A DNA stretch of 47,057 nt from Nitrospirota bacterium (GTDB lineage: Bacteria; Nitrospirota; Thermodesulfovibrionia; Thermodesulfovibrionales; Magnetobacteriaceae), in the NCBI GenBank assembly GCA_015233895.1, contig JADFXG010000023.1, positions 1-47,057 on the forward strand, read 5' to 3'. Positions 1,290-29,403 of this stretch are shown here, one piece after another; the first letter of the stretch is position 1; every line of letters begins with the position of its first letter. Both the position numbers and the translations under genes were made by a program. A model generated the notes under the pieces. It was given only the letters and a program-made list of their open reading frames with translations. It was not told the origin of the DNA and did not search any database.

Positions 1290-2177
1290 TTAGTGTTTCT
1301 TTTCGTTTTTCAATGTCTGATAAAATTCAAGAGCCTGTTTAGGCGCCATACTTTCGTGCACGACTTTTCTTACGGCCTGAATCATAGCAATCGGGTCATC
1401 GGCCTGAAAAATATTTCTGCCCATATCAACCCCGGCAGCTCCTTGTTGAATTGCATTGTAGGACATTGTAAGAGCATCCAGTTCGGGAAGCTTTTTGCCG
1501 CCTGCCATGACTATCGGCACAGGACACGAGGCGGTAACAGTGTCAAACCCATCCGGCACATAGTAGGTCTTAACATAGGAGGCGCCAAGCTCAGCACAAA
1601 TCCTGCATGCAAGCCTGAAATACCGCGCATCTCTTGCCATATCCTTACCGACGGCAGTAACAGCCAGTGTGGGAATCCCATAACGGTTACCTATGTCAAC
1701 AAGGCGGGTCATATTGTGAATTGATTTTGTTTCATATTCGCCTCCGATAAAAACCTGAACTGCCATGGCTGATACATTAAGACGGATGGAGTCTTCAATA
1801 TCAACTGCGATTTCCTCGTTGGATAGTTCCTTTAAAATGCTTGGGCCTCCGCTTGCCCTCATCACTATTCCTCTTTGGTATGTGGGAGGAATTACTGATC
1901 TTAAAATCCCTCGGGTCAGCATCAGGGTGTCAGTATAGGGTATAAGCGGAACAATATTAATATCCACTCTTTCAAGGCCGGTCGTCGGTCCCTGAAAATA
2001 ACCGTGGTCAATGGCAAGCATCACGGTTTTTCCGGAGTTTGGGTCAAAGATTTTAGAAAGACGGTTTTTCATCCCCCAATCAAGGGAGTTTGATCCTTTC
2101 AGAAAAAATACATCGCTCTTTTGAGCAACCTCAGGGTAGAAAAGTTTAGCTTCTTTTACGTTGTCAAGGTCTGCCAT
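1290..2177 (-). CDS. LsrF-like class I aldolase / thiolase
   Basis: The 295-residue protein is closely similar along its whole length to E. coli LsrF (291 residues). LsrF is the DeoC/LacD-type TIM-barrel enzyme that transfers an acetyl unit from the autoinducer-2 breakdown product 3-hydroxy-5-phosphonooxypentane-2,4-dione to CoA. Shared signatures are [72 protein letters not shown] and the tail [10 protein letters not shown]. Lys203 in VKTYY aligns with the Schiff-base lysine of LsrF. No lsr transporter, kinase (lsrK) or lsrG is nearby. It lies 32 bases downstream of the RuBisCO-like/cupin gene on the same strand, so the pair probably forms an operon. The substrate may be a related phospho-sugar from methylthio-sugar or ketose metabolism. 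Family is certain; substrate is not. Confidence 0.85.
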
Positions 2178-2209
2178 GTTGTCTCCTTATTTATAATTAA
2201 TAGTGTGTA

Positions 2210-3790
2210 TTACGGTTTTTGAGGTTTATCCCTTATATGGTCAACTATGCAGAAAAACCCAAACGGCTCTGCTGTTTCATTTATAAGACGATGAACCTGC
2301 ATTGGGGGCACATATGCCACATCAAGCGGATTGAGCGTAATTTTATCCTCACCGCTTATCAGTTGGCCAACCCCACGCACACATATTATTACATGTTCAT
2401 GCTGGTGTTTTTCAAGGCTTGAATAACCTTTTTCAGCAATTTCAAAATATCTGAGATCAAAATTCGTCTGCTCGCCGTATTGTCCGGTAAGTTCATGGCG
2501 GATTATGTCTTTAAAATCCTGATGTTCCGATGCTTTATAAACCGTTGGGATTCTGCCGTGCCACAAGAAACTATTAAATGGAAGGTGGCACAGTAGCTCA
2601 CCCTGTGTGTTAGCGGTCATGTCACAAGATGAATGGGCAGAGTTAGATGACAAATCAGGAGGCGTTGTTTTTTCATCAAATATTTCCCTTATTTTAATTA
2701 AAAAATCTGCGGTGCCTTTTCTTAAACTCTTGTTGTAAAGATGAAGGGCACCTCCAATCAGATAGACCGTGTCAGAGCCGTAAAGTGCTGCCATATCAGT
2801 GATACTGTCAAAGCTCATGCCGCCTGCAGGGGCCGGGAATGACGGCTTTATATGGTAAAGTGGGTGTCTTAGCGCATCATGAAGTTTTTTGCAGTCAGAT
2901 TGAGTAAACCCGAATCTTCCTCCCGTATTGGGGTAGATGGAGATATCGGCGCCTGCCAGCCTGAAAATTGTGCCAAGCAAAACGTCAATAGAAATCCCAT
3001 GATTTAAGTCGTGAAAATGTGTGCCGGTAAGTGCCGGATGAGACATAACTATCATATTAAATTTTTCGCTGAGATACCGCACCGAGTCAATTCCAACCAA
3101 AAAAGGAGAGATAAGAATCCCTCTGATACCCTCATCTGCGGCAAAGCTGACACAGCGCTCAAGCATATCCGCCTGTGCGCATATATTTGGAAAATAGATA
3201 GTGTTTTTACCAGTTTCAAAATTTGCTTTTGTTACGGCCCTTGTACACAAGGAAATTCTTTGTTTAAATTTATCAAAACTGCGGTCAACGAGGCCGTGGT
3301 CATCCTTTATGAGGTCACCGCCGCCATGAGCAAAGTTATAAGCGATTTCAGCCAACTCGGCGGGAGACAGTCCCATCGGTTTCAGAGCAGTGCTAAGAAG
3401 CGGACGGCCATAAACACCGAGGAGTTTTCTAATACCTTCAATCCCAAAGTTTGGCCCGCGGAATTTTTCTATAAAACACTCCGGTAGCTTAATATCCACA
3501 ATTTTAATCCCGTTAAGCAGTGAAATGTTGCCATAGAGGACATTTAAAAACTGTGGCAACTGGTATGCGGTTATTTCGGGGTTATAGGATATTGTAGCGA
3601 GGTATAGGTTTTCATCTAATGGTGTGATACTTTCGGTTTTACCTATAATTGTATCTCCAATACCTCGTATGGCAGCAAGCTCCTCAGGCACCTCAACAGT
3701 CTGTTCAAGGGCAATCTTTCTTACAAGACGTTGAACGTCCTCACCGTGGTAACATTTTACACGATAGGTTATCTCGATTTTTTTCAGCAC
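2210..3790 (-). CDS. RuBisCO-like protein fused to C-terminal cupin
   Basis: A 526-residue protein. Residues 1 to about 390 form a RuBisCO large-chain fold of the form IV (RuBisCO-like) type. LKPMG holds the catalytic-loop lysine (K137), and GGGDLIKDDHG holds the carbamylatable-lysine motif (K162, D163) with His165 in place of the Glu of true RuBisCO. Loop 6 reads PSFPAPAGGMSF, without the lysine required for CO2 fixation. After a linker, about residues 425-526 form a cupin with a KHQHEH metal motif and a second motif VPPMQVHRL. In Rhodospirillum rubrum an RLP isomerises methylthioribulose-1-phosphate and a separate cupin (MTXu-5P methylsulfurylase) acts next, so a fusion of the two activities is plausible. 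A sugar-acid decarboxylase is the alternative. The start is GTG at 3790 with a TATAAT only 3 bases upstream and no clear RBS. Confidence 0.85.
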   Translation of the reverse strand: MLKKIEITYRVKCYHGEDVQRLVRKIALEQTVEVPEELAAIRGIGDTIIGKTESITPLDENLYLATISYNPEITAYQLPQFLNVLYGNISLLNGIKIVDIKLPECFIEKFRGPNFGIEGIRKLLGVYGRPLLSTALKPMGLSPAELAEIAYNFAHGGGDLIKDDHGLVDRSFDKFKQRISLCTRAVTKANFETGKNTIYFPNICAQADMLERCVSFAADEGIRGILISPFLVGIDSVRYLSEKFNMIVMSHPALTGTHFHDLNHGISIDVLLGTIFRLAGADISIYPNTGGRFGFTQSDCKKLHDALRHPLYHIKPSFPAPAGGMSFDSITDMAALYGSDTVYLIGGALHLYNKSLRKGTADFLIKIREIFDEKTTPPDLSSNSAHSSCDMTANTQGELLCHLPFNSFLWHGRIPTVYKASEHQDFKDIIRHELTGQYGEQTNFDLRYFEIAEKGYSSLEKHQHEHVIICVRGVGQLISGEDKITLNPLDVAYVPPMQVHRLINETAEPFGFFCIVDHIRDKPQKP

Positions 3791-4500: not shown

Positions 4501-5703
4501 GTGCTTTCAAATGCCCACTCCGCTCTTTCAGCCGTCATGGCATATCGCCTAAGGAGTTTTTTCTGCATCCTGAGTGTAAGCATAGCAATAGCCGCAATAA
4601 CCGCCATTGTTGCCGCAGTAGAAGGCGCTTACAATAGCGCCTATGAGCTGGTTGATAAGTTTGGCCCTGATACCGCTCTCATAATTGGAGGAGGTGAAGT
4701 CCAAAAGGCTTCCGGTTACAGAGAGAAGACCCTCACACTGACCGATGCCCGGGCAATTCGGGATGCTTTTATGTCGGCATGGCTGGTCATGCCTGTAGCC
4801 ATAAAATCCGGGACAACTGTCTCTTACGGCAGTAAAAAACATCAGGCACTGGTTTTGGGTTCATCAGAGGACTACAGCAGAAGCTGGAGTTGGCCTGTTA
4901 GTGAAGGCACTGACTTAACGGCTGAGGATATCGCCTCTGGCACAAATGTCTGCCTGACCGGCCTGAAAGTTGTACAGGAACTGTTTGATGATAAGTCCCC
5001 TGTAGGAGAGACTATCATGGTCGGCATAATTCCCTGTAAAGTCATCGGCGTTCTTGCCGACAGAACCATATCCCAAATGGGACAGGATCTTAATGACCGG
5101 ATAATTATGCCCATCTCGACAGTTATGCGAAAACTGCTTAACGAATCCCGCTACGTGTCGGTCATAAAGGTACGGTTTGAAGACCATGAAAATCTGAAAT
5201 ACCACATAGCTGAACTCAAAGAATTTCTCAGACACCGCCATAATATCAAAGAGGACGATGAGGATGATTTTAAGATTATCACCTCCGACGAAATTATAGC
5301 GTTTCTCGTTGCGTTAACCGGCTCATTAGTGGTTTTTTTGGGCATAACCGGTTTAGTGTCGCTGGTTGTGTCAGGGTTTGTACTGGCTAACTTATTTCTT
5401 CTTTCGGTTAAGGAAAGAACACGGGAGATAGGCATAAGGAGAGCGTGTGGGGCAACCGCCAGGGATATTTTTACCATGTTTTTATTTGAAGCCGCACTCA
5501 TTACAGCACTGGGAGGCGTTGTGGGATTTTTGTTAGGAATTGCAGTTTCTGAAATTCTTAATGCCACAGCGGACTTTCCCATACATTTTTCATGGAAAGC
5601 CTTTGCAGCAGCCTTATCTCTTTCCATTATCACAGGAGTTGTGTTTGGTATAAAACCTGCCGTTTCCGCCTCATCATTAAAACCTATCGAGGCAATACGG
5701 TGA
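4501..5703 (+). CDS. FtsX/MacB-type ABC transporter permease 1
   Basis: A 400-residue membrane protein of the MacB/FtsX permease type. There is one N-terminal helix (about residues 17-40), a long extracytoplasmic MacB_PCD-like domain, then three C-terminal helices beginning near residue 265, with the cytoplasmic signature KERTREIGIRRACGATARDI between helices. Proteins of this type use ATP hydrolysis by a LolD/MacB-like partner for mechanotransmission across the envelope (lipoprotein, peptide or drug export). The start is a GTG at 4501, chosen because it sits just before the first helix; no strong RBS is seen. The next permease gene overlaps it by 4 bases (GTGA). No ATPase or membrane-fusion protein gene accompanies the pair. 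Confidence 0.85.
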   Translation: MLSNAHSALSAVMAYRLRSFFCILSVSIAIAAITAIVAAVEGAYNSAYELVDKFGPDTALIIGGGEVQKASGYREKTLTLTDARAIRDAFMSAWLVMPVAIKSGTTVSYGSKKHQALVLGSSEDYSRSWSWPVSEGTDLTAEDIASGTNVCLTGLKVVQELFDDKSPVGETIMVGIIPCKVIGVLADRTISQMGQDLNDRIIMPISTVMRKLLNESRYVSVIKVRFEDHENLKYHIAELKEFLRHRHNIKEDDEDDFKIITSDEIIAFLVALTGSLVVFLGITGLVSLVVSGFVLANLFLLSVKERTREIGIRRACGATARDIFTMFLFEAALITALGGVVGFLLGIAVSEILNATADFPIHFSWKAFAAALSLSIITGVVFGIKPAVSASSLKPIEAIR

Positions 5704-6956
5704 AAATGCCTCCCGTAAGACACACCTATTCAGCCAAAAACCTGATTCTTAATCTTAAAATCGCACTAAAATCCCTTAGTAACTTTAAACTGCGAACCGC
5801 ACTTGCCGTAATGGGTGCCGTGTTTGGAGCGCTTTCAATTACTGTGGTCTCAAGTGTCTCTCTCTCAATGAAAATAAAAACAGAAAGGGAATTAGCCTCA
5901 TTTGGTAAAAATCTGCTTGTAATCAGAAGCGGCCAAATGAAAACCCACGGCAGACCTGACGTTATGACAGACTCTCCCAAACTGAGCACTCTTGATGCCG
6001 CTGCTATCAGAGACCATACGCCGTATGTGAAAGAGACCTCCGTTATTGCACACAGGTCGTTGCCAGTGCGCTACTCTGACATGACCCTTCCTGGAGCAAT
6101 TGTGATGGGAGTTTCGGCAGGGTACTTTAAAATCAGAGACCTTAAACTAAGCTCCGGCACACTGTTTACACAAACGCATTACAATGGGCTACAGAGGGTG
6201 GTTGTGATAGGTTCAAATATAGCTGAGAGGTTTTTCGCCCCTGATGAAAACCCCCTCGGAAAATACATTTATATCTATCAGCTGCCATGTGAAATAATTG
6301 GGGTAGCAACGCCTATGGGAGTGGATTTCTCGGACATTAATCAGGATAACCTCGTATATATGCCGCTTCAGACATATTTAAGAAGGTTTACAAACACTAC
6401 AAAGGTTAACTTTATTCAGGTGCAAGCAGTGGATGGCGCTGTTATGGAGCCGCTTAAGGCAGAGACCGAAAGGATACTAAAAGAGCGCCACGGAATAAAA
6501 GAGGGCGAACAAAATGATTTTACCGTCTTTACCCTGAAAGATTTGACTACAATGCAGGACAAATCAATCAGGATAGTTAGAATACTGGGGCTTTGTGCCA
6601 GTACGGCATCGTTTTCGATAAGTGCAATAGGGATTCTTTCAATAATGGCCCTCATGGTGACAGAGCGCCGGGTTGAGATAGGAATAAGACGGGCAGTTGG
6701 GGCAGCAAAGAGAGACATTGTGCTTCAGTTTTTAGGGGAATCATCTTTTGTATCAGTTAGCGGAGGAATTGTTGGCGTCTGTACGGGCACGTTGATTACT
6801 ATCGGCATAAGTTATTTTTCAGAGCTGCCCCTTAGTGTTTCAGCCTCAGGAGTTGCGCTTGCGCTAATCTGCTCTATAGTGACGGGAATTGTATCCGGAG
6901 TTTATCCTTCAATCAGGGCAGTAAGGATAGCCCCTGTCAACATAACCCACAATTAG
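5700..6956 (+). CDS. FtsX/MacB-type ABC transporter permease 2
   Basis: A 418-residue paralogue of the preceding permease with the same design. An N-terminal amphipathic stretch (NLKIALKSLSNFKLRTAL) and first helix are followed by a periplasmic domain containing PLGKYIYIYQLPCEIIGVATPMG. Three C-terminal helices follow, with TERRVEIGIRRAVGAAKRDI at the ATPase-coupling position. I chose GTG at 5700, overlapping the upstream stop as GTGA with GAGG (5689-5692) 7 bases before it. An in-frame ATG at 5706 is the alternative. The two permeases probably form a heterodimer. The ATPase that drives them must be encoded elsewhere. Confidence 0.85.
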   Translation: MKMPPVRHTYSAKNLILNLKIALKSLSNFKLRTALAVMGAVFGALSITVVSSVSLSMKIKTERELASFGKNLLVIRSGQMKTHGRPDVMTDSPKLSTLDAAAIRDHTPYVKETSVIAHRSLPVRYSDMTLPGAIVMGVSAGYFKIRDLKLSSGTLFTQTHYNGLQRVVVIGSNIAERFFAPDENPLGKYIYIYQLPCEIIGVATPMGVDFSDINQDNLVYMPLQTYLRRFTNTTKVNFIQVQAVDGAVMEPLKAETERILKERHGIKEGEQNDFTVFTLKDLTTMQDKSIRIVRILGLCASTASFSISAIGILSIMALMVTERRVEIGIRRAVGAAKRDIVLQFLGESSFVSVSGGIVGVCTGTLITIGISYFSELPLSVSASGVALALICSIVTGIVSGVYPSIRAVRIAPVNITHN

Positions 6957-16439: not shown

Positions 16440-17432
16440 TTATTTTTTTGACTCATACAGAAAATTAAAAATCTCTGTGGCCTTACTGACAATATCCATA
16501 TCGCTTTTAATGCGACTTCTCATACCGTTTAGTATTTTCTCGACTCCGGCAGTCTCAACACTCCGGTACTTACCATCTTTCATATCAATTTCATGAATGA
16601 TTTCGGCTATATGCTTTACAACACCGTCTTTTATACCAAACGATTTAACTAAGACCTCAAACGTGCAATCATCCCCGATATGAGTAAACTCCCCGCCAAC
16701 CACATCAAAATAGACATTATTAGAAGAGGAGGATAAGTCCATCTCACTTTCCTCCTCAAATGCAATAACAGCATCCTTGTCAATGAATCTCCTGATAAGC
16801 CAAATTGAAGACAGTCTGTCAATATAGGGTCTTTTTCTTGTCACCCAGCGCTTACCACAGTAATCCCCGATTTTTCGCAACACTATTTTTTTCGTTTTTT
16901 CTACTGATGCGGGGTTCAAATGAAAAACAACAGCCTCTTTGAGTTCATTCAATCTTGCCTCTATAGTCTTTTTTTCGCAGAGAGAGAAAAAATCTATCTT
17001 TTTTACTTCCTCGTACTCGTTTGTTAACTTGTTTAAGCGCTCATATATTTTATGAAAACTATTAATACCAGCTGGGTTTGAGGACATCTTAGCATTAACA
17101 AAGTTTCTGTCAGTTTCTTCGAGATATTTTTCTATTTTCTCATAGTCGCCCTCTCTTGCCGTATTAAACAACGCAATAACCTCGCCATCTTTGATATTTT
17201 CAAATTTTTCAACCGCTACGAAACCGCTGTCACCGCCGATAGAGTCCACCTCGCTTAGCAACCACTGAAAAAATTCATAATGCTCTTCACTGTAGGGAAG
17301 TACATAGACAGAATGCTTAAATTGAATAGCGCCAGCCTTAGCAAGCCGCCTCCAAATCTTAACCCTGTTATTAACAGGAGATGCCGACACCGTGTAAAAA
17401 AATAAAAGCCAGCTTCTTTTGTTTTGTAACAT
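16440..17432 (-). CDS. chrB: ChrB-type chromate resistance/sensor protein
   Basis: The 330-residue protein has a ChrB N-terminal domain (SWLLFFYTVSASPVNNRVKIWRRL, then FKHSVYVLPYSEEH) and a ChrB C-terminal domain (KRWVTRKRPYIDRLSSIWLI, RRFIDKDAVIAF, then GGEFTHIGDDCTFEVL). ChrB acts in chromate-responsive regulation and resistance in proteobacteria. Here no chrA is adjacent; instead DUF2148 and MFS genes follow at 22- and 13-base gaps. The gene is divergent from a Crp/Fnr regulator. Its start codon is 6 bases behind a TACAAT box with no RBS, and it is embedded in a palindromic sequence, so regulation and a leaderless transcript seem likely. Confidence 0.85.
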   Translation of the reverse strand: MLQNKRSWLLFFYTVSASPVNNRVKIWRRLAKAGAIQFKHSVYVLPYSEEHYEFFQWLLSEVDSIGGDSGFVAVEKFENIKDGEVIALFNTAREGDYEKIEKYLEETDRNFVNAKMSSNPAGINSFHKIYERLNKLTNEYEEVKKIDFFSLCEKKTIEARLNELKEAVVFHLNPASVEKTKKIVLRKIGDYCGKRWVTRKRPYIDRLSSIWLIRRFIDKDAVIAFEEESEMDLSSSSNNVYFDVVGGEFTHIGDDCTFEVLVKSFGIKDGVVKHIAEIIHEIDMKDGKYRSVETAGVEKILNGMRSRIKSDMDIVSKATEIFNFLYESKK

Positions 17433-20983: not shown

Positions 20984-23335
20984 GTGAGCAACGATAATGC
21001 TGTTATTGATTTTGGAATTATAACAGCCATAACTGAGGAATTTGCTGCAGTCAAATGTATGCTTGATAATGGAGAAGATTATTCTAAACGCACTGAATTC
21101 GTAAAAAATGACCCGAATGATTATTTTATAGGTACGGTTAATGCTCTCGATGGATCAGGAAAGCACAATGTTATAGTTACACTATTACCAGATCCTGGGA
21201 ATAATATATCGGCAGAAGCAGTTACTAATTTATTAAGAAGTTTTCCTGATATAAAAGAGGTTTTAATGGTTGGGATTGCAGGGGGAGTTCCTAAACCAAA
21301 AAATATTAGTAAGCATGTACGCCTCGGTGATATAGTTGTGTCAAATAAATACGGAATAATTCAGTATGATAATATCATGGAGGAATTTAGCAAAATAGTT
21401 ATTCGTGATAAATCTTCACGCCCCTCCGCAGCTATGATAAATAAAGTAAATAAATTAGAATCAGAAAGGATTGCAGGAAAATACCCTTGGGAAAAATACA
21501 TTGAACGTGCAGCACATTTGGAAAATGCTGAAAGACCAAATGATGATAAAGATATTCTATATCTTTGGCAGCAACAAGGTGATAAGTTGGTAATAGATTC
21601 GCAAGTGGAACATCCGATAGATAATAATCGGGCTAAAAGAATGGGACAACCTAAAATACATTATGGGAAAATAGGGGCAGCTAATACTCTTTTAAAAAAC
21701 CCGTTTATGAGAGATGAACTGGGAGACCAACATGATGTTAAAGCTATAGAAATGGAGGCTTCTGGTATAGCTGATGGTACATGGAAATTTGCTAAGAGCT
21801 ATATTATAATCCGTGGTATATGTGATTATTGTGATGAGGGAAAAAACGATATATGGCATCAATATGCAGCTATTGTGGCCGCTGCATATGCTCGTTGTTT
21901 GATTGAATCGTGTTCATGTTCTGGTACATCATCTGAAAAACCTAATGGTTCTGTAACAAATATTGCAGGTAAAGATGAATTAAAAAAACAGTTATTAACG
22001 TGCGGGACAAAGATGATGGACGATACGATATTCATCAATGTTTTTAGAGAGATAGACAGTGCCAAAGATATATCAATAGCGTTAAATAAAGCATTTGATT
22101 ACTACTGTAGAAATATGCTACTAAAAATTGGTAATCTTGAAGGTACCTCTCTGTACGAACAACTTGCAAAGGTAACGCTTATTTTGAATGACATAGATAT
22201 TGATATATGTACGCGCGCTTATAACATAGTTGCTGACAAATATCCCCATAAAGACTTTACAAACCTGCTATGTGCTATATTTAGACTCCTTAAATTACCT
22301 CCTAACATAGAGAATGAACTCCCTTTTATTATCTTTATAGAAAAAGTTATTTACATTATGAAAAATGAAAATATAACTAATGGTTCATACAACAAATTAA
22401 AAGAATGGTTTGAATCCTTTTGCAAGAAGTTTGATGAAAAAACCTGTGCTGCTGACTCGGTGACTTTAAGTAGAAACAGGGTTGTTCATCTTCTTATACA
22501 AATAAGGCCACAGTTTCCTAATAATATAAAGAATACGTATAGTATTCAGATAAATAAATGGACTAATACTGGAAAGAATAATGTAATACCTAATGAAAAT
22601 AACGCCAAATATCATGACGTTACATTTGACCAAATACCTAAAATCATTGATGATCTTTTATGTTCAAGTTTTGTAAGCAATATTAACCTTGAAAGGTTAG
22701 AGTTTTTTTTACCATCTAATTTAGTTTTCTGGGATGTTGATCAATATAATTTAAAAGAACTCACATTTAGAAAAAAACTTGGACAAAATTATGAAATTGT
22801 TATCAGGATTAATCGTTTATTTGTTGATGATGCGTTAAAAAACCCTGCTAAATCATCAGTTTCACGAGATTGGAGAAAGAGATGGGATATTTTGCAAAAT
22901 CGTATGGGAACATTCGATGAAAAATGTATCAAACATATATGTGATATTAACGGATATTGTGCTGAAAATGTTTTTGATGAAATAGATGATGAAGACATTG
23001 GAGATTATATAACATGTCTTGAGATAGCATTTAGACCTAAAACAAAAGAGGACGAAAAAGATTTAGTTAATTTAATCTGGGAAAGTGGTATCCCAGTTGC
23101 TGTCTTGCATAGAAAATCGTATAACTCTCTAAATAGCACCCTCGAGTTACCTGAAAACACTAAAATTATTAACAAAGAAACAATCTCTGATCTACCCAAT
23201 ACTGTTCGCAAAATTCGGAGAAAAGCTAAGGGTGAACAACATATAGGAAATCATTTAACTCTTATCTGGGATGATCCATATAAAACAGTAACATTTAATG
23301 ATGCTGAATCATTGCATTACATAAACAAAACTTAA
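20984..23335 (+). CDS. PNP-like nucleosidase domain fused to VMAP-C-like region
   Basis: A 783-residue protein. Residues 1 to about 311 form a purine-nucleoside-phosphorylase/MTA-SAH-nucleosidase-like domain: FGIITAITEEFAAVKCML, EVLMVGIAGGVPKP, VRLGDIVVS, AIEMEASGIADGT and IIIRGICDYCDEGKND. This version recurs in conflict and NLR-like proteins as a sensor or nucleotide-degrading effector. A linker (about 313-333) leads to a helical middle region (about 334-540). Residues about 545-783 resemble the VMAP C-terminal domain, with LERLEFFLPSNLVFWDVDQY, WRKRWDIL, CLEIAFRP, ESGIPVAVLHRK and LTLIWDDPYK. It starts at GTG 20984 (GGAGG 5 bases upstream) and heads a three-gene operon with MoxR and vWA/Roc/TIR genes. 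I infer a hub joining nucleotide sensing or cleavage to the ATPase. Confidence 0.8.
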   Translation: MSNDNAVIDFGIITAITEEFAAVKCMLDNGEDYSKRTEFVKNDPNDYFIGTVNALDGSGKHNVIVTLLPDPGNNISAEAVTNLLRSFPDIKEVLMVGIAGGVPKPKNISKHVRLGDIVVSNKYGIIQYDNIMEEFSKIVIRDKSSRPSAAMINKVNKLESERIAGKYPWEKYIERAAHLENAERPNDDKDILYLWQQQGDKLVIDSQVEHPIDNNRAKRMGQPKIHYGKIGAANTLLKNPFMRDELGDQHDVKAIEMEASGIADGTWKFAKSYIIIRGICDYCDEGKNDIWHQYAAIVAAAYARCLIESCSCSGTSSEKPNGSVTNIAGKDELKKQLLTCGTKMMDDTIFINVFREIDSAKDISIALNKAFDYYCRNMLLKIGNLEGTSLYEQLAKVTLILNDIDIDICTRAYNIVADKYPHKDFTNLLCAIFRLLKLPPNIENELPFIIFIEKVIYIMKNENITNGSYNKLKEWFESFCKKFDEKTCAADSVTLSRNRVVHLLIQIRPQFPNNIKNTYSIQINKWTNTGKNNVIPNENNAKYHDVTFDQIPKIIDDLLCSSFVSNINLERLEFFLPSNLVFWDVDQYNLKELTFRKKLGQNYEIVIRINRLFVDDALKNPAKSSVSRDWRKRWDILQNRMGTFDEKCIKHICDINGYCAENVFDEIDDEDIGDYITCLEIAFRPKTKEDEKDLVNLIWESGIPVAVLHRKSYNSLNSTLELPENTKIINKETISDLPNTVRKIRRKAKGEQHIGNHLTLIWDDPYKTVTFNDAESLHYINKT

Positions 23336-23347
23336 GAAGGAGGAAAT

Positions 23348-24361
23348 ATGGCAAACTGGCATATATATAAGGGTGATAACACACCGCCACATGACGAATT
23401 AGATAAGCTCCCATCAGCTCCTAAATGGCGGCAGTTTAATAAAGGTAATCAATCTGGGCATGACAGCGAGACAAAAAAACGCTCTAATGAATACACAAGA
23501 GGCGAAAACTTTGTAAGCGAAGAAAATGAGATAGAAATTATAAATGCAGCGCTTTATCTAAGAAGACCTTTATTAGTTAAAGGAACACCAGGTATTGGCA
23601 AATCTACAATTGCCTTCTCCGTTGCCCATGAACTTAAACTTGGAAAAGTTTTGTACTGGCCGATAACAACTCGTACTACTTTAAAAGATGGTCTGTATAA
23701 TTATGATGCTATAGGCCGTTTGCAGGAATTCCAAATGGCAAAACCAGAAGGTAAGATACCTGACATAGGAAAATACATCCGGCTTGGGCCGTTAGGAACA
23801 GCTCTCCTTCCATCAGAGCGTCCGAGAGTTTTACTCATAGATGAAATTGATAAATGTGATATTGATCTGCCAAACGACCTCTTATGTGTATTTGAGGAGG
23901 GTAGATTTGAAATACCTGAATTATCACGTTTAGCAGTTAAGGACTCAGATGATAATACCGAAGACACAGATGATAATATAAAGTATGTGTTTCCTCATGA
24001 TAGTAAAAAAAGAGTGCCTATTGAGGGAGGTCACGTTATTTGTAATGCTTTTCCATTTGTAGTGCTTACCAGTAATGCTGAAAGAGAACTGCCTGCTCCA
24101 TTTCTGAGGCGTTGCCTGAGGCTCGATATAAAGGAGCCTGAAAGTGATAAATTAAGTAAAATCGTCTCCTCCCATTTTTCTGATATAGATATAGAAGCAA
24201 AAAATAAACTGATAGAAACCTTTGTAACAAAGCGTAAAGACGGTGACCTGGCTACAGATCAACTCCTTAATGCCCTTTATCTCACAACTAAAGGAATTGA
24301 TCTGTTTGATGGCAAAGATGACCTGATTAATGCCGTCTTAAGAAATTTAAACACAACATAA
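23348..24361 (+). CDS. MoxR-type AAA+ ATPase of conflict system
   Basis: The 337-residue AAA+ protein has Walker A GTPGIGKST (about residues 79-87), Walker B VLLIDEIDKCDIDLPNDLL (about 160), sensor-1 FVVLTSNAERELPAPF (about 237) and an arginine finger region FLRRCLRLDI. The insert carrying charged residues DSDDNTEDTDDNIKY is unusual. MoxR ATPases act with vWA proteins as chaperone-like remodelers, and in ternary conflict systems they gate the effector. An AGGAGG lies 5 bases before ATG 23348. The gene follows the PNP/VMAP-C gene by 12 bases and precedes the vWA-GTPase-TIR gene by 39, so the three are almost certainly co-transcribed. A short N-terminal region (residues 1-55) is specific to this clade. 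Confidence 0.9.
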   Translation: MANWHIYKGDNTPPHDELDKLPSAPKWRQFNKGNQSGHDSETKKRSNEYTRGENFVSEENEIEIINAALYLRRPLLVKGTPGIGKSTIAFSVAHELKLGKVLYWPITTRTTLKDGLYNYDAIGRLQEFQMAKPEGKIPDIGKYIRLGPLGTALLPSERPRVLLIDEIDKCDIDLPNDLLCVFEEGRFEIPELSRLAVKDSDDNTEDTDDNIKYVFPHDSKKRVPIEGGHVICNAFPFVVLTSNAERELPAPFLRRCLRLDIKEPESDKLSKIVSSHFSDIDIEAKNKLIETFVTKRKDGDLATDQLLNALYLTTKGIDLFDGKDDLINAVLRNLNTT

Positions 24362-24400
24362 AAAAATGTTGCCTATTTACCATAATAAGATGAGAGCCTA

Positions 24401-27400
24401 ATGCTTATACAATTTATAGAAACACTTAGGAATGTGGGCTTTAACCTTACATCTACGGAGATAGCGGATATTTTGTGGTTTGCTGATTGTATTGATAAGC
24501 CTCAAGAACAAGAGCCTGAGAGACCTGTTGCAGAACCGGAGAGTGAAAATAACGGCATTGCTATAGCACAAAAACACGAGAGAACTGAGAATATGCTAAA
24601 GGCCAGTGTAAAATTAAAAAAACCACAAACACCGCTTGATTTAAAGCCAATTAAAACCGATACAACCCCTGACACTAACGTGAGCACTGAACCTGTAAAA
24701 AACCATGCCACAGCACCACTTCATAATAAACTTGAAATCAGCAGGGCATTAAGACCTCTTAAGAAAACATTTCCGTCTAATCATAGATTTATAATAGATG
24801 AGAATGAAACAGCTAACTTCATTGCAGAATCCGGTATATATGTACCAGTTCTGAGACCTGAGCAAATCCGATGGTTCGATGTTGCAATAGTTGTTGACGA
24901 ATCTTTCTCTATGTCCGTATGGCAGGATACAATTAATGATTTTAAACTTTTATTACAAAGACATGGTGCATTTCGAAATGTTAAAATTTTTGGTTTTACA
25001 TATGACAAAGCTAAAGACAAAAGTATTCGATTCTATGCAGGCACAGGAATTTTGGCATCACGGAAAAAACTAAACCCTAAGGAGCTGATTAACCCTTCAG
25101 GCAGGTCATTACTAATCGTGATAAGCGACTGCGTATCACTGGCGTGGTATGATGGTAAGGTTTCTCATATGATGTTTGAATGGGGAAAGACAAGCATAGT
25201 TACATTGCTCCAGGTACTGCCTCACTGGTATTGGAGACACACTGCAATTGATATGGGAAAACCAAGACAATTACGGGCTATTAAACCTGGATTAACAAAA
25301 TCTAAAATAAATGGCAAAGATGCAAGCGTTTCTGAAATTCCTATTGTCACTTTCGATGCTGTTTCTTTGAGATTATGGGCACAATTAATTACTAATAATA
25401 CTACTGAGTGGACACCAGGAGTTGTTTTCTTACATAAAGACAGCAAAAGAGAATTTAAACCTGTAAGGGATGAAAAAGAGTTATCGGCTTTTCGATTTCT
25501 ACCTGATAACCCGGAGAAAAAACTCAAAGCCTTTGTTGCTACTGCTTCAGAAAAAGCACAGCGGCTTGCAAGGTATCTTGCTGCAACACCACTAAATCCT
25601 TCTACTATGAAATTTATACAGCAAGAAATGTTAACCGATTCAAACCCTGCATATTTAGCAGAGATTCTGATAAGCGGTATAGTCGAGATGTCTGATTATA
25701 CTGATACTAACGACATACAACTTGATTTTACCGGAAATATCAGAGACCGCCTGATTTCGTGGACTAATATAAGCGACACTGTTACAGTGTTGTCAAAACT
25801 CCAAATTTTTGTTGATAAATATACAAATAAATCTCTTGACATAAAGTCTTTAGTAACAAACCCTGAATTAGTTGAGAAAATTGCAATAGATAAAAATAAT
25901 AAAGTGGCATTTTCTACACGTGTTCTAAAGCGACTAGGTGGTAAATATACAGAACTAGCAACTCGTATCTCTAAATTGATTTATGAAGAAACCCCAAAAG
26001 ATAATACAAGAAAATTATACGAGGCCAAACTTTTGATTGTGGGACAAGGTGGAGTTGGAAAGACAAGTATTTTAAGAAGATTAACTAACGATACTTTTTC
26101 AGATAATCAGGAAACAACTGTAGGAATAGACATAAGACGATTAAATTTGACAAGTAAAGACAATTTAGAATTAAAACTAAATGTATGGGATTTCGGCGGG
26201 CAGGCGATATATCACTCAACGCATCAGTTTTTCTTAACCAAACGCTCAGTGTATATGTTAGTGTGGGATGCCGGACAGGAGGCAGTTTTTGGTAGAATTG
26301 AGGATTGGCTCAATGAGATTAAAGTCTTTGGCGATGACAGTCCAGTTATTTTGGTTCTTAATAAGTGCGATCAGTATATAGAAGAAATTAATTTTAAAGA
26401 TTTAAAAACAAGATTTCCCAATATTGATAGTTTTCTTAAAGTAAGCGCTAAAAGTCCTGAAAACGGACCCGATAGCTTTGATAAACTAAAAGCCAATATA
26501 GCTGAAATAGCCGCCAAACTACCGCATATGGGTGCTGAGTGGCCGGAGGCATGGTTAAAAATTAGAGAGCATTTAGAAAATGACACAAGAAACTATATAG
26601 ATTATTCAGAATTTCAGAAGGTTTGCAAAGAAAACGGGATTGGAGAAAAAGAGGAAAAGGTGCTTGATGAATATCTTCATGACTTAGGCGTTTTTTCACA
26701 TTTTAAAGACGATTTGATATTACACAATACGATAATTATAAAACCATCATGGGCTACAAATGCAGTATATAAACTCATGTCGTCAAGGGCTGTATTGAAT
26801 AGGAAAGGAATTTTATATGAAAGCGATTTGCCGGATATTTGGAAAGAAACCGATGGTTATCCTCAGTCAAAATATCCAATGCTTCTTAGCTTAATGAAAA
26901 CTTTTGAGTTGTCATTTCATATGGAAGGAACAACGCACCATGTTATAGCAAATTCTTTAACAAGAGAAAGTGTTGATTTTGACTGGGACCCAGATGATAG
27001 CACAAGAGTTTTTTACAAATATGAGTTTCTGCCAAAAAGCATCATACCAAGGTTTATTGTAAGAGTACATGAATTGATTAAGAGAGATACAGAAGGCAAT
27101 TACTTGTGCTGGAGAGATGGAGCAATATTAGAGAAAATTTCAGACGGTGTCAGAAGACACACATATGTAAAAGCCGATACTTACGGTAAAAAAATAGAAA
27201 TAATAGTTAGCGGTGATAGCAGGCGTGAATTTTTTGCTATTATAAGAAACAACTTTGATAGTATCCATAATAAAATGAAAGGAATTAAATCTGACTTAAC
27301 AATAGCATGTAACTGTGAAGAGGGTTGTACATCTACGTATAGTTATGATTTTATTCTTAGAATGGAAAAGGAGGGAAAATCTGAAGTTCAATGTTATAAA

Positions 27401-27841
27401 TCGGCTCATAGTGTACCAATAAAAAGTCTTTGGGGGCATAGATTTGACGTGTTCATCAGCCACGCTTCATCTGACAACGATTTCATTGTCAACAATATAT
27501 TACCTGATTTCAAAAGAAGAGGAATAACCTATTGGATGGATATTGAGCTGGGAGCTTCTGCCTCTCCAGTCATAGAAGAAATAAAGAAGGGATTACAAAA
27601 TAGTAAACACATTCTTGTCTGCCTAAGTAAAAATACTGGAAAATCTGAATGGGTACAAACTGAATATGGTTCAATTTTGAATAAGATGCTTGCTAAAAAA
27701 ACTAATAAAAAAGTTATACCATTTAAAATAGATAATATTGAAAACAGTGAAATTCCACATTTACTTCTTAACATCCAAATTGCAGATTATTCAGATAAAA
27801 AGTCATACAACGACTTACTGGATTTTCTATCAAAAGCATAG
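24401..27841 (+). CDS. vWA + Roc-COR GTPase + TIR fusion protein
   Basis: A 1146-residue multidomain protein. After an acidic/proline-rich N-terminus (about 1-125), a vWA-like domain begins near residue 155 with MIDAS motif DESFS (D166-S170), of the kind found next to MoxR and VMAP genes. Residues about 540-690 form a Roc-type GTPase: VGQGGVGKTS (about 546), NVWDFGGQAIYH and LVLNKCDQY. A COR-like region runs to about 990 (YSEFQKVCKENGIGEKEEKV, and HNTIIIKPSWATNAVYKLM). Residues 1014-1146 are a TIR domain, FDVFISHASSDNDF and KSEWVQTEYGSIL, with Glu about 1088 where NADase TIRs keep the catalytic Glu. The protein would join partner recruitment (vWA), a GTP switch and an NAD+-degrading or signalling effector in one chain. 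Nothing similar is adjacent; it closes the operon. Enzyme activity is inferred. Confidence 0.85.
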   Translation: MLIQFIETLRNVGFNLTSTEIADILWFADCIDKPQEQEPERPVAEPESENNGIAIAQKHERTENMLKASVKLKKPQTPLDLKPIKTDTTPDTNVSTEPVKNHATAPLHNKLEISRALRPLKKTFPSNHRFIIDENETANFIAESGIYVPVLRPEQIRWFDVAIVVDESFSMSVWQDTINDFKLLLQRHGAFRNVKIFGFTYDKAKDKSIRFYAGTGILASRKKLNPKELINPSGRSLLIVISDCVSLAWYDGKVSHMMFEWGKTSIVTLLQVLPHWYWRHTAIDMGKPRQLRAIKPGLTKSKINGKDASVSEIPIVTFDAVSLRLWAQLITNNTTEWTPGVVFLHKDSKREFKPVRDEKELSAFRFLPDNPEKKLKAFVATASEKAQRLARYLAATPLNPSTMKFIQQEMLTDSNPAYLAEILISGIVEMSDYTDTNDIQLDFTGNIRDRLISWTNISDTVTVLSKLQIFVDKYTNKSLDIKSLVTNPELVEKIAIDKNNKVAFSTRVLKRLGGKYTELATRISKLIYEETPKDNTRKLYEAKLLIVGQGGVGKTSILRRLTNDTFSDNQETTVGIDIRRLNLTSKDNLELKLNVWDFGGQAIYHSTHQFFLTKRSVYMLVWDAGQEAVFGRIEDWLNEIKVFGDDSPVILVLNKCDQYIEEINFKDLKTRFPNIDSFLKVSAKSPENGPDSFDKLKANIAEIAAKLPHMGAEWPEAWLKIREHLENDTRNYIDYSEFQKVCKENGIGEKEEKVLDEYLHDLGVFSHFKDDLILHNTIIIKPSWATNAVYKLMSSRAVLNRKGILYESDLPDIWKETDGYPQSKYPMLLSLMKTFELSFHMEGTTHHVIANSLTRESVDFDWDPDDSTRVFYKYEFLPKSIIPRFIVRVHELIKRDTEGNYLCWRDGAILEKISDGVRRHTYVKADTYGKKIEIIVSGDSRREFFAIIRNNFDSIHNKMKGIKSDLTIACNCEEGCTSTYSYDFILRMEKEGKSEVQCYKSAHSVPIKSLWGHRFDVFISHASSDNDFIVNNILPDFKRRGITYWMDIELGASASPVIEEIKKGLQNSKHILVCLSKNTGKSEWVQTEYGSILNKMLAKKTNKKVIPFKIDNIENSEIPHLLLNIQIADYSDKKSYNDLLDFLSKA

Positions 27842-27905: not shown

Positions 27906-28967
27906 TTACCGCTGGTTTAATTCAACAACACCAAAATACTTCCCTTTGAAATACAGTGCAACCTTTACAAGAGAAATTAACACAGGCACCTCGGCAAGCG
28001 GCCCGATAACTGCAGCAAAGGCCGCCCCTGAGTCTATTCCAAAAAGCGCTATTGTTACCGCTATTGCCAGTTCAAAGTTGTTGCTTGCTGCCGTAAAGGA
28101 CAATGTTGTAGTTTTTTCATAGTCAAACTTAAACCGCCAGCCCAAGTAAAAAGATACTAAAAACATGATAACAAAATAAATCACAAGAGGAACAAATATT
28201 CTTACAACATCAAAAGGCAATTGCACTATATACCGTCCTTTCAACGTAAACATGACAACCACAGTAAAAAGAAGAGCTATTAAAGTAATAGGGCTTATTG
28301 TTGGGGTAAATACATTTTCAAACCAGTACACCCCTTTTTTTCTGATTATAATAAACCTGCTTAAAATACCCGCAATAAAAGGGATTCCCAAATAAATGAA
28401 CACACTTTTTGATATTTGTACAATTGTGATAGAAACCACTGTTCCCTTTAGTCCAAATAATGGAAGCAAAAATGTTATAAAAAAATACCCATACATTGAG
28501 TAAAATATTAGTTGGAAAAAAGAATTAAACGCTACCAATCCGGCAGCGTATTCCCTGTTACCCTCTGCCAGATCGTTCCACACCACAACCATCGCGATAC
28601 ACCGTGCAACCCCTGTAAGAATCAACCCATACATGTACTGCGGATGGTCTCTTAAAAACACTATGGCAAGAAAAAACATCAGAAAAGGACCTATAAGCCA
28701 GTTCTGTAAAAGAGAAAACGCAAGAATCTTCTTGTTTTTAAAAACCTCGTGGAGTTTTTCATATTTAACCTTCGCTAGTGGCGGATACATCATAAGAATC
28801 AGCCCTATAGCAATAGGCACATTTGTGGTATCCACCTGAAACATATTTAAAAAATCCTTAGTCTGCGGAACAAAATATCCAATACCAATCCCCACAAACA
28901 TCGCACTAAATATCCACAACGTGAGAAATCTGTCAATAAAGGATAATTTTTTGGAGTTAGTCGCCAT
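27906..28967 (-). CDS. acr3: Acr3-family arsenite efflux transporter
   Basis: The 353-residue membrane protein has about ten helices and the Acr3 signatures: [20 protein letters not shown] with the essential cysteine in helix 4 and [18 protein letters not shown] later in the protein. It exports arsenite produced by the arsenate reductase. It lies one base downstream of arsC on the minus strand and converges with the TIR-protein gene at its 3' end. Expression should be driven from the arsC promoter and controlled by ArsR. Confidence 0.95.
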
Positions 28968-28968
28968 T

Positions 28969-29403
28969 TTATTCTCCCTCTATCTCCTTAATCCAGCTCT
29001 GAATTTTTGCCTTAATTTCTTCTTTAATAACCCTTGTTTTAGCTATTTTTTCCTCCTCTGTTCCCTCAAGTGAGGATGGATCATCAAATCCCCAATGCAG
29101 CCTTTTGTTGATTCCGGGAAATATTGGACATTTTTCAGCTTTCGTTGCGTCACAGACCGTTATGACATAATTAAACAGATCGCCGTTTTTAAACATATCA
29201 AATACGCCTTTAGTGCTGTTGCCTGATAGGTCAAAGCCATCTTCTTTCATAACCCGTACAACTAATGGGTTTAGCACACCGGGTTCAAGACCAGCGCTCT
29301 TTACATCAAATTTTTGCCCTCCGTATTTCTTAAGAAATGCCTCCGCCATCTGGCTTCTGGCGCTGTTATGAACACATACAAACAGAACTTTTATTTTTTC
29401 CAT
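28969..29403 (-). CDS. arsC: Thioredoxin-type arsenate reductase ArsC
   Basis: The 144-residue low-molecular-weight-phosphatase-like enzyme has the CX5R active site CVHNSAR (starting at residue 10) and the later redox cysteines in [16 protein letters not shown]. The reaction is arsenate to arsenite with electrons from thioredoxin. An AGGAGGAG lies before ATG 29403. It heads the minus-strand half of a divergent ars locus. Confidence 0.95.

Follow-up and report, generated by a model that had tools for sequence, protein, structure and literature searches.

The window analysed here, a stretch of 47,057 nucleotides from a Nitrospirota genome of the family Magnetobacteriaceae (contig JADFXG010000023.1), encodes a RuBisCO-like protein (RLP) that is fused to a cupin. 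The fusion is very probably a bifunctional enzyme of the oxygen-independent methylthioadenosine (MTA)-isoprenoid shunt, a predicted function for which homology and genomic context give good support. MTA is a waste product of polyamine synthesis, and the route of the fusion would recover both its sulfur and a precursor of isoprenoids and vitamins. The shunt, known from purple bacteria, would thereby also be placed in the Fibrobacterota and throughout a family of a further phylum. The features on which the analysis is based are the following:

2210..3790, minus strand: RLP-cupin fusion frame, 526 aa, GTG start, without internal stop
2675..3790, minus strand: RLP domain, residues 1-372 (phmmer match to 3QFW at residues 7-369; 3QFW is also the top Foldseek match)
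3371..3385, minus strand: LKPMG, residues 136-140; Lys137 corresponds to RuBisCO Lys175 (alignment)
3293..3307, minus strand: KDDHG, residues 162-166; Lys162 corresponds to RuBisCO Lys201, and His165 replaces Glu204, as in 3QFW (alignment)
2906..2938, minus strand: loop 6, IYPNTGGRFGF, residues 285-295; Arg292 replaces Lys334, as in 3QFW (alignment)
2813..2833, minus strand: APAGGMS, equivalent of RuBisCO S379-G380-G381, not loop 6 (alignment)
2576..2674, minus strand: linker, residues about 373-405; varies between species; pLDDT <50 at 379-425
2213..2575, minus strand: cupin domain, residues 406-526, MTXu-5-P methylsulfurylase type (matches to 3IBM, 3KGZ and 3JZV; tree)
2393..2407, minus strand: metal ligands H462-x-H464-x-H466, invariant in ten fusions and matched in 3JZV and 3KGZ
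2291..2293, minus strand: H500 (in MQVHR), fourth His of the cupin metal site, invariant
2249..2251, minus strand: C514 in GFFCIVD, candidate sulfur acceptor, invariant in 41 aligned cupins including Rru_A2000 and RPA2170
1290..2177, minus strand: LsrF-type aldolase/thiolase, 295 aa, 32 bases downstream of the fusion, with its own ribosome-binding site AAGGAG
1569-1571, minus strand: LsrF Lys203, aligned with E. coli LsrF

The original prediction placed an RLP and a cupin in a single open frame, and this was borne out: the frame is intact, and Pfam recognizes both domains (RuBisCO_large, 98 bits, residues 116-348; Cupin_2, 37 bits, residues 448-515). Among 245 genomes searched from the phylum, nine are from the window's family (L007-L015), and each of these encodes the fusion in a single frame without interruption, with 52-100% identity. 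It was also found in one metagenome-assembled genome of the Fibrobacterota (Chitinispirillaceae, L002:5841-7487), where the domain order is the same and the frame encodes 548 aa; this protein is 44% identical to that of the window, but it belongs to another phylum and has no LsrF beside it. Since these ten genomes share the same frame, which is single in each of the nine family genomes sampled, a chance frame or an assembly artefact was rejected. The linker between the domains differs in length and sequence in an alignment of the fusions and is predicted to be disordered (AlphaFold pLDDT <50 at residues 379-425); the mean pLDDT of ten modelled fusions is 67.7, a middling confidence. No earlier published RLP-cupin fusion was found in a search that lay mostly outside the subscription journals, and a prior mention is possible. 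The MtnBD protein of Tetrahymena likewise fuses steps of MTA salvage (PMC3698126); however, it is built of different enzymes, acts in an oxygen-dependent pathway and comes from a eukaryote.

A separate RLP gene followed by a cupin gene is found in a genome of the Elusimicrobiota (L003) and in four genomes of the phylum sample (G090, G233, G201 and G225; loci L016-L019), and these unfused neighbours have the same gene order as the fusion, as is also the case in R. palustris. In the cupin tree, the cupin halves of all fusions, the one from the Fibrobacterota included, group in one clade (96/92). In the RLP tree, the unfused Elusimicrobiota protein lies between the family and the Fibrobacterota protein with modest support, and a single fused clade was not rejected (AU p 0.16). 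A single fusion event with later transfer is possible.

The best solved relative of the RLP half is 3QFW, the RLP1 of R. palustris, with 250 bits in a phmmer search (next match, 137 bits) and about 35% identity. We take 3QFW to be RPA2169, as the two nearly coincide in organism, clade and annotation; the tool output names the organism and the type of protein only. The same entry is the first Foldseek match of the predicted structure (TM 0.82 by target length) and reaches Z 33.9 at 34% identity with a second structure aligner, by which form III RuBisCO is tied in Z; all of these structural matches lie in the RLP half, the match lists being filled by RuBisCO entries without the cupin half surfacing. 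In a tree that contains no OiaX sequence, the RLP half and 3QFW fall into one clade (100/98), apart from MtnW and form III RuBisCO; within this clade, the branches are long and their order is modestly supported (83/72).

The motifs LKPMG and KDDHG were found where they had been reported (residues 136-140 and 162-166). The assignment of FPAPAGGMS to loop 6, however, has to be corrected: residues 318-326 align with the S379-G380-G381 loop, which reads VASGGLH in 2CWX and 6HUN. The accompanying statement that loop 6 lacks its Lys is right for another reason, as the true loop 6 (NTGGRFGF) carries an Arg in place of Lys334. Together with the His in place of Glu204, this sets the protein apart from the carboxylating RuBisCOs. 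Among the references aligned, KDDH, GGRF and PAGG (for SGG) are common to the RLP half and 3QFW only. The RLP half thus clusters with R. palustris RLP1 and keeps its active-site pattern (KDDH, Arg at 334, PAGG), which places it in the DeepYkr group. Where the original prediction had left the choice between the R. rubrum type and the OiaX decarboxylase type, the model scores and the tree support the former (the R. rubrum/R. palustris or DeepYkr type): the OiaX decarboxylase model NF042437 gives only 94 bits against a cut-off of 700. The MtnW enolase was likewise rejected, with 146 bits for TIGR03332 (cut-off 514) and 200 bits for NF007095 (cut-off 409). These data support the assignment of the RLP half as a putative 5-methylthioribulose-1-P 1,3-isomerase of the DeepYkr type, rather than MtnW or OiaX. 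At about 35% identity to 3QFW, a shift in the substrate of the RLP could have occurred; the fusion makes the assignment firmer, as enzymes joined in one chain mostly serve the same pathway. In a sister clade of RLPs from the families f21, f23 and f27 (L020-L024, L026-L036), no cupin was seen on the fetched stretches. The RLPs of f27 have lost the KDDH and PAGG residues (KDDQ/KDDS, AAGR), and a different reaction is therefore likely there.

The only strong solved relatives of the cupin half are 3IBM, 3KGZ from R. palustris and 3JZV, which is Rru_A2000. The homology to Rru_A2000 and RPA2170, the latter of which is presumably 3KGZ, extends over the whole domain (E 1.4e-16 and 4.1e-18). The metal-binding motifs HxHxH and MQVHR that had been named for the cupin are present (H462/H464/H466 and H500), so that the cupin retains its ligands, and the four metal His and one Cys are invariant in 41 of 41 aligned cupins. 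Of the two outcomes named beforehand as refutations, a tree placement with oxo-acid decarboxylases and a cupin devoid of metal ligands, neither was seen. In a genome of the Thermoanaerobaculia (L004:7015-8375), inspection by eye revealed a cupin gene directly after a spermidine-synthase-like gene; spermidine synthase is the usual source of MTA. In the MTA-isoprenoid shunt of R. rubrum and of R. palustris, it is the cupin that serves as methylsulfurylase (PMC5893883, PMC4958253), and the alignments support membership of the cupin half in this MTXu-5-P methylsulfurylase family. The methylthio group ends on glutathione in R. rubrum (PMC4334135), and C514 may act as a Cys relay or sulfur acceptor.

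The chemistry of the shunt has been established in R. rubrum (PMC4334135, PMC4958253, PMC5893883), and R. palustris RLP1 turns 5-methylthioribulose-1-P into 1-methylthioxylulose-5-P (PMC5893883). The upstream enzymes, which the original prediction had proposed to look for elsewhere, were both found at other loci: the window's genome, whose content was tested for named families, encodes MtnA (420 bits, cut-off 279) and the MTA phosphorylase MTAP (mtnP; 320 bits, cut-off 275). MtnA is nearly universal in the phylum sample (233/245) and is also present in the genomes of L002-L006. Full Dxs is encoded in 18 of 19 genomes of the family, the exception being a genome that is 79% complete (G250). As Dxs is present in the window's genome, the shunt as a replacement for Dxs was ruled out; it is therefore regarded as a salvage route whose 1-deoxyxylulose-5-P (DXP) adds to the supply by Dxs.

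In the proposed reaction sequence, MtnP would phosphorolyse MTA and MtnA would isomerise the product to 5-methylthioribulose-1-P. The RLP half would then enolise this compound on a metal at the KDDH/Lys162 site and move the carbonyl, giving 1-methylthioxylulose-5-P. From this product, the cupin half at the other end of the linker would remove the methylthio group to yield DXP, using a divalent metal bound by H462/H464/H466/H500 and probably C514 as the sulfur acceptor, and methanethiol would be released after reduction by a cellular thiol. The activities of the two halves, the nature of the metal, the part played by C514 and the choice of thiol are inferences; the R. rubrum cupin uses glutathione (PMC4334135), and the thiol may differ here. 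One guess, in line with the substrate channelling of the original prediction, is that the fusion hands the intermediate between the active sites across its variable and presumably disordered linker, another that it helps by local concentration, and the fused protein provides a direct handle on whether 1-methylthioxylulose-5-P passes between the two sites.

The closest parallels are found in the purple bacteria. R. rubrum Rru_A1998 and Rru_A2000 belong to the same two families, share the metal-site residues and the Cys of the cupin and also act downstream of MtnP and MtnA; however, they are separate proteins, whereas the window encodes one chain that is followed by LsrF. The R. palustris pair RPA2169 and RPA2170, which we equate with 3QFW and 3KGZ, comprises the closest solved RLP and one of the three closest solved cupins, but it is unfused, and its RLP1 has about 35% identity to the window's RLP half. 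RLP1 and the cupin of R. palustris are active in vivo (PMC5893883).

As originally described, an LsrF-type gene is next after the fusion, 32 bases downstream. Its product scores 503 bits with NF006081 (cut-off 297), aligns over its full length with E. coli LsrF (3GKF, 392 bits) and keeps the catalytic Lys203. While E. coli LsrF sits with the lsr operon, no lsr operon or AI-2 genes were seen beside its counterpart at this locus. The protein is the only DeoC/DhnA-family member of the genome; a role as the sole FBP aldolase was rejected, as a class II FBP aldolase is encoded in the genome. LsrF adjoins the fusion only in three genomes of the same genus (L007-L009) and lies elsewhere in the six other genomes of the family. 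Among the genomes listed, 27 of the 50 that have a stand-alone cupin encode it, as do 10 of the 20 that lack both the cupin and the RLP. Gene neighbourhoods and co-occurrence thus rule out LsrF as a constant partner of the fusion. The original prediction had taken LsrF as a pointer to a route ending in cleavage or acetyl transfer; this was not supported, and LsrF was not used to infer the product of the fusion, because the link is confined to the genus and LsrF is about equally frequent with and without the cupin. Most likely, LsrF is a separate activity that has been placed beside the fusion in this genus. In five of the six family genomes where LsrF lies apart from the fusion, and likewise in G096, LsrF is directly followed by a gene for a bifunctional class II aldolase/short-chain dehydrogenase of the PRK08324 type (805 bits); over the family as a whole, six of nine genomes have this arrangement (L043:6916-9039, L112-L115, L117). 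In other families, LsrF is usually found beside a third zinc dehydrogenase, MDR-C; LsrF and an oxidoreductase form a conserved pair.

A route in which LsrF would take part leads from MTA to acetyl-CoA and DHAP: the cupin would eliminate methanethiol without reduction to give phospho-4,5-dihydroxy-2,3-pentanedione (phospho-AI-2), which would be isomerised to the substrate of LsrF and then cleaved by LsrF with CoA. Such a non-reductive elimination parallels the chemistry of LuxS, and the conserved adjacency of the two genes in three species of the genus, the NF006081 score and the retained Lys203 speak for it. It is nevertheless improbable: six of the nine family genomes have LsrF at a place away from the fusion, LsrF does not correlate with the cupin, the Cys that a reductive route would call for never varies, and no isomerase gene lies between the fusion and LsrF.

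It is similarly unlikely that the fusion serves mainly 5'-deoxyadenosine, with the RLP turning 5-deoxyribulose-1-P directly into DXP. MtnA is promiscuous between both substrates (PMC6302742), and DXP would form without a cupin step; but precisely this would leave a fused and strictly conserved cupin without a task. Far-fetched by comparison is another function of the RLP, as an MtnW enolase or an OiaX-type decarboxylase with an unrelated cupin. The best NCBIfam matches are indeed named MtnW (NF007095), and the OiaX model gives some signal, but all of these scores lie far under their cut-offs, the tree sets the RLP half apart from MtnW, and the cupin half belongs to the methylsulfurylase family.

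About 60 genomes of the phylum sample encode this cupin but lack an RLP of the present clade. Where the cupin match is listed, 50 of 50 such cupin-only genomes also encode MDR-B, a specific zinc dehydrogenase (52-100% identity), whereas none of 52 RLP genomes does, these being raw genome counts uncorrected for kinship. Conversely, 61 of the 63 genomes with MDR-B match the RLP-cupin query, 11 of the 61 lying below the listed range and being taken as cupin. At 24 fetched cupin-only loci, two of which are from other phyla (L005, L006), 19 have MDR-B in the vicinity and 13 have a further dehydrogenase, MDR-A; at L070, MDR-A is encoded at 2131-3147 and MDR-B at 5245-6273. The cupin lies beside one or two MDRs at L005, L006, L056-L059, L063, L067-L074 and L078-L081. 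The switch between RLP and MDR-B does not simply follow one branch of the tree, since the families f7 and f12 hold both kinds (RLP in G090, G233 and G225; MDR-B in G109, G118, G144 and G196). It is conceivable, with somewhat less than an even chance, that the RLP-cupin fusion and MDR-A/MDR-B can stand in for each other at the start of a common sulfur-salvage module, in which the RLP would be the one-step counterpart of the MDR pair. The pair would first form a polyol phosphate by reduction of 5-methylthioribulose-1-P at C2 and then oxidise C4 to give 1-methylthioxylulose-5-P, a sequence that would be redox-neutral overall. Judged from gene content, MDR-A/MDR-B are thus a candidate non-homologous redox replacement of the RLP step, which moves the carbonyl from C2 to C4. 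If this is true, the MDR pair would represent a new form of methionine salvage that needs neither oxygen nor an RLP, and methanethiol would have an additional source.

The window also contains genes of other kinds. At 20984-27841 on the plus strand, a phosphorylase-domain/VMAP-C protein (783 aa), an AAA ATPase (337 aa) and a Roc-COR-TIR protein (1146 aa) are encoded, and this three-gene set looks like a ternary conflict or defence system. Genes related to metal resistance encode a ChrB-like protein (16440-17432, minus strand) and an SBF-family transporter beside an arsenate-reductase-like small phosphatase (27906-29403, minus strand).
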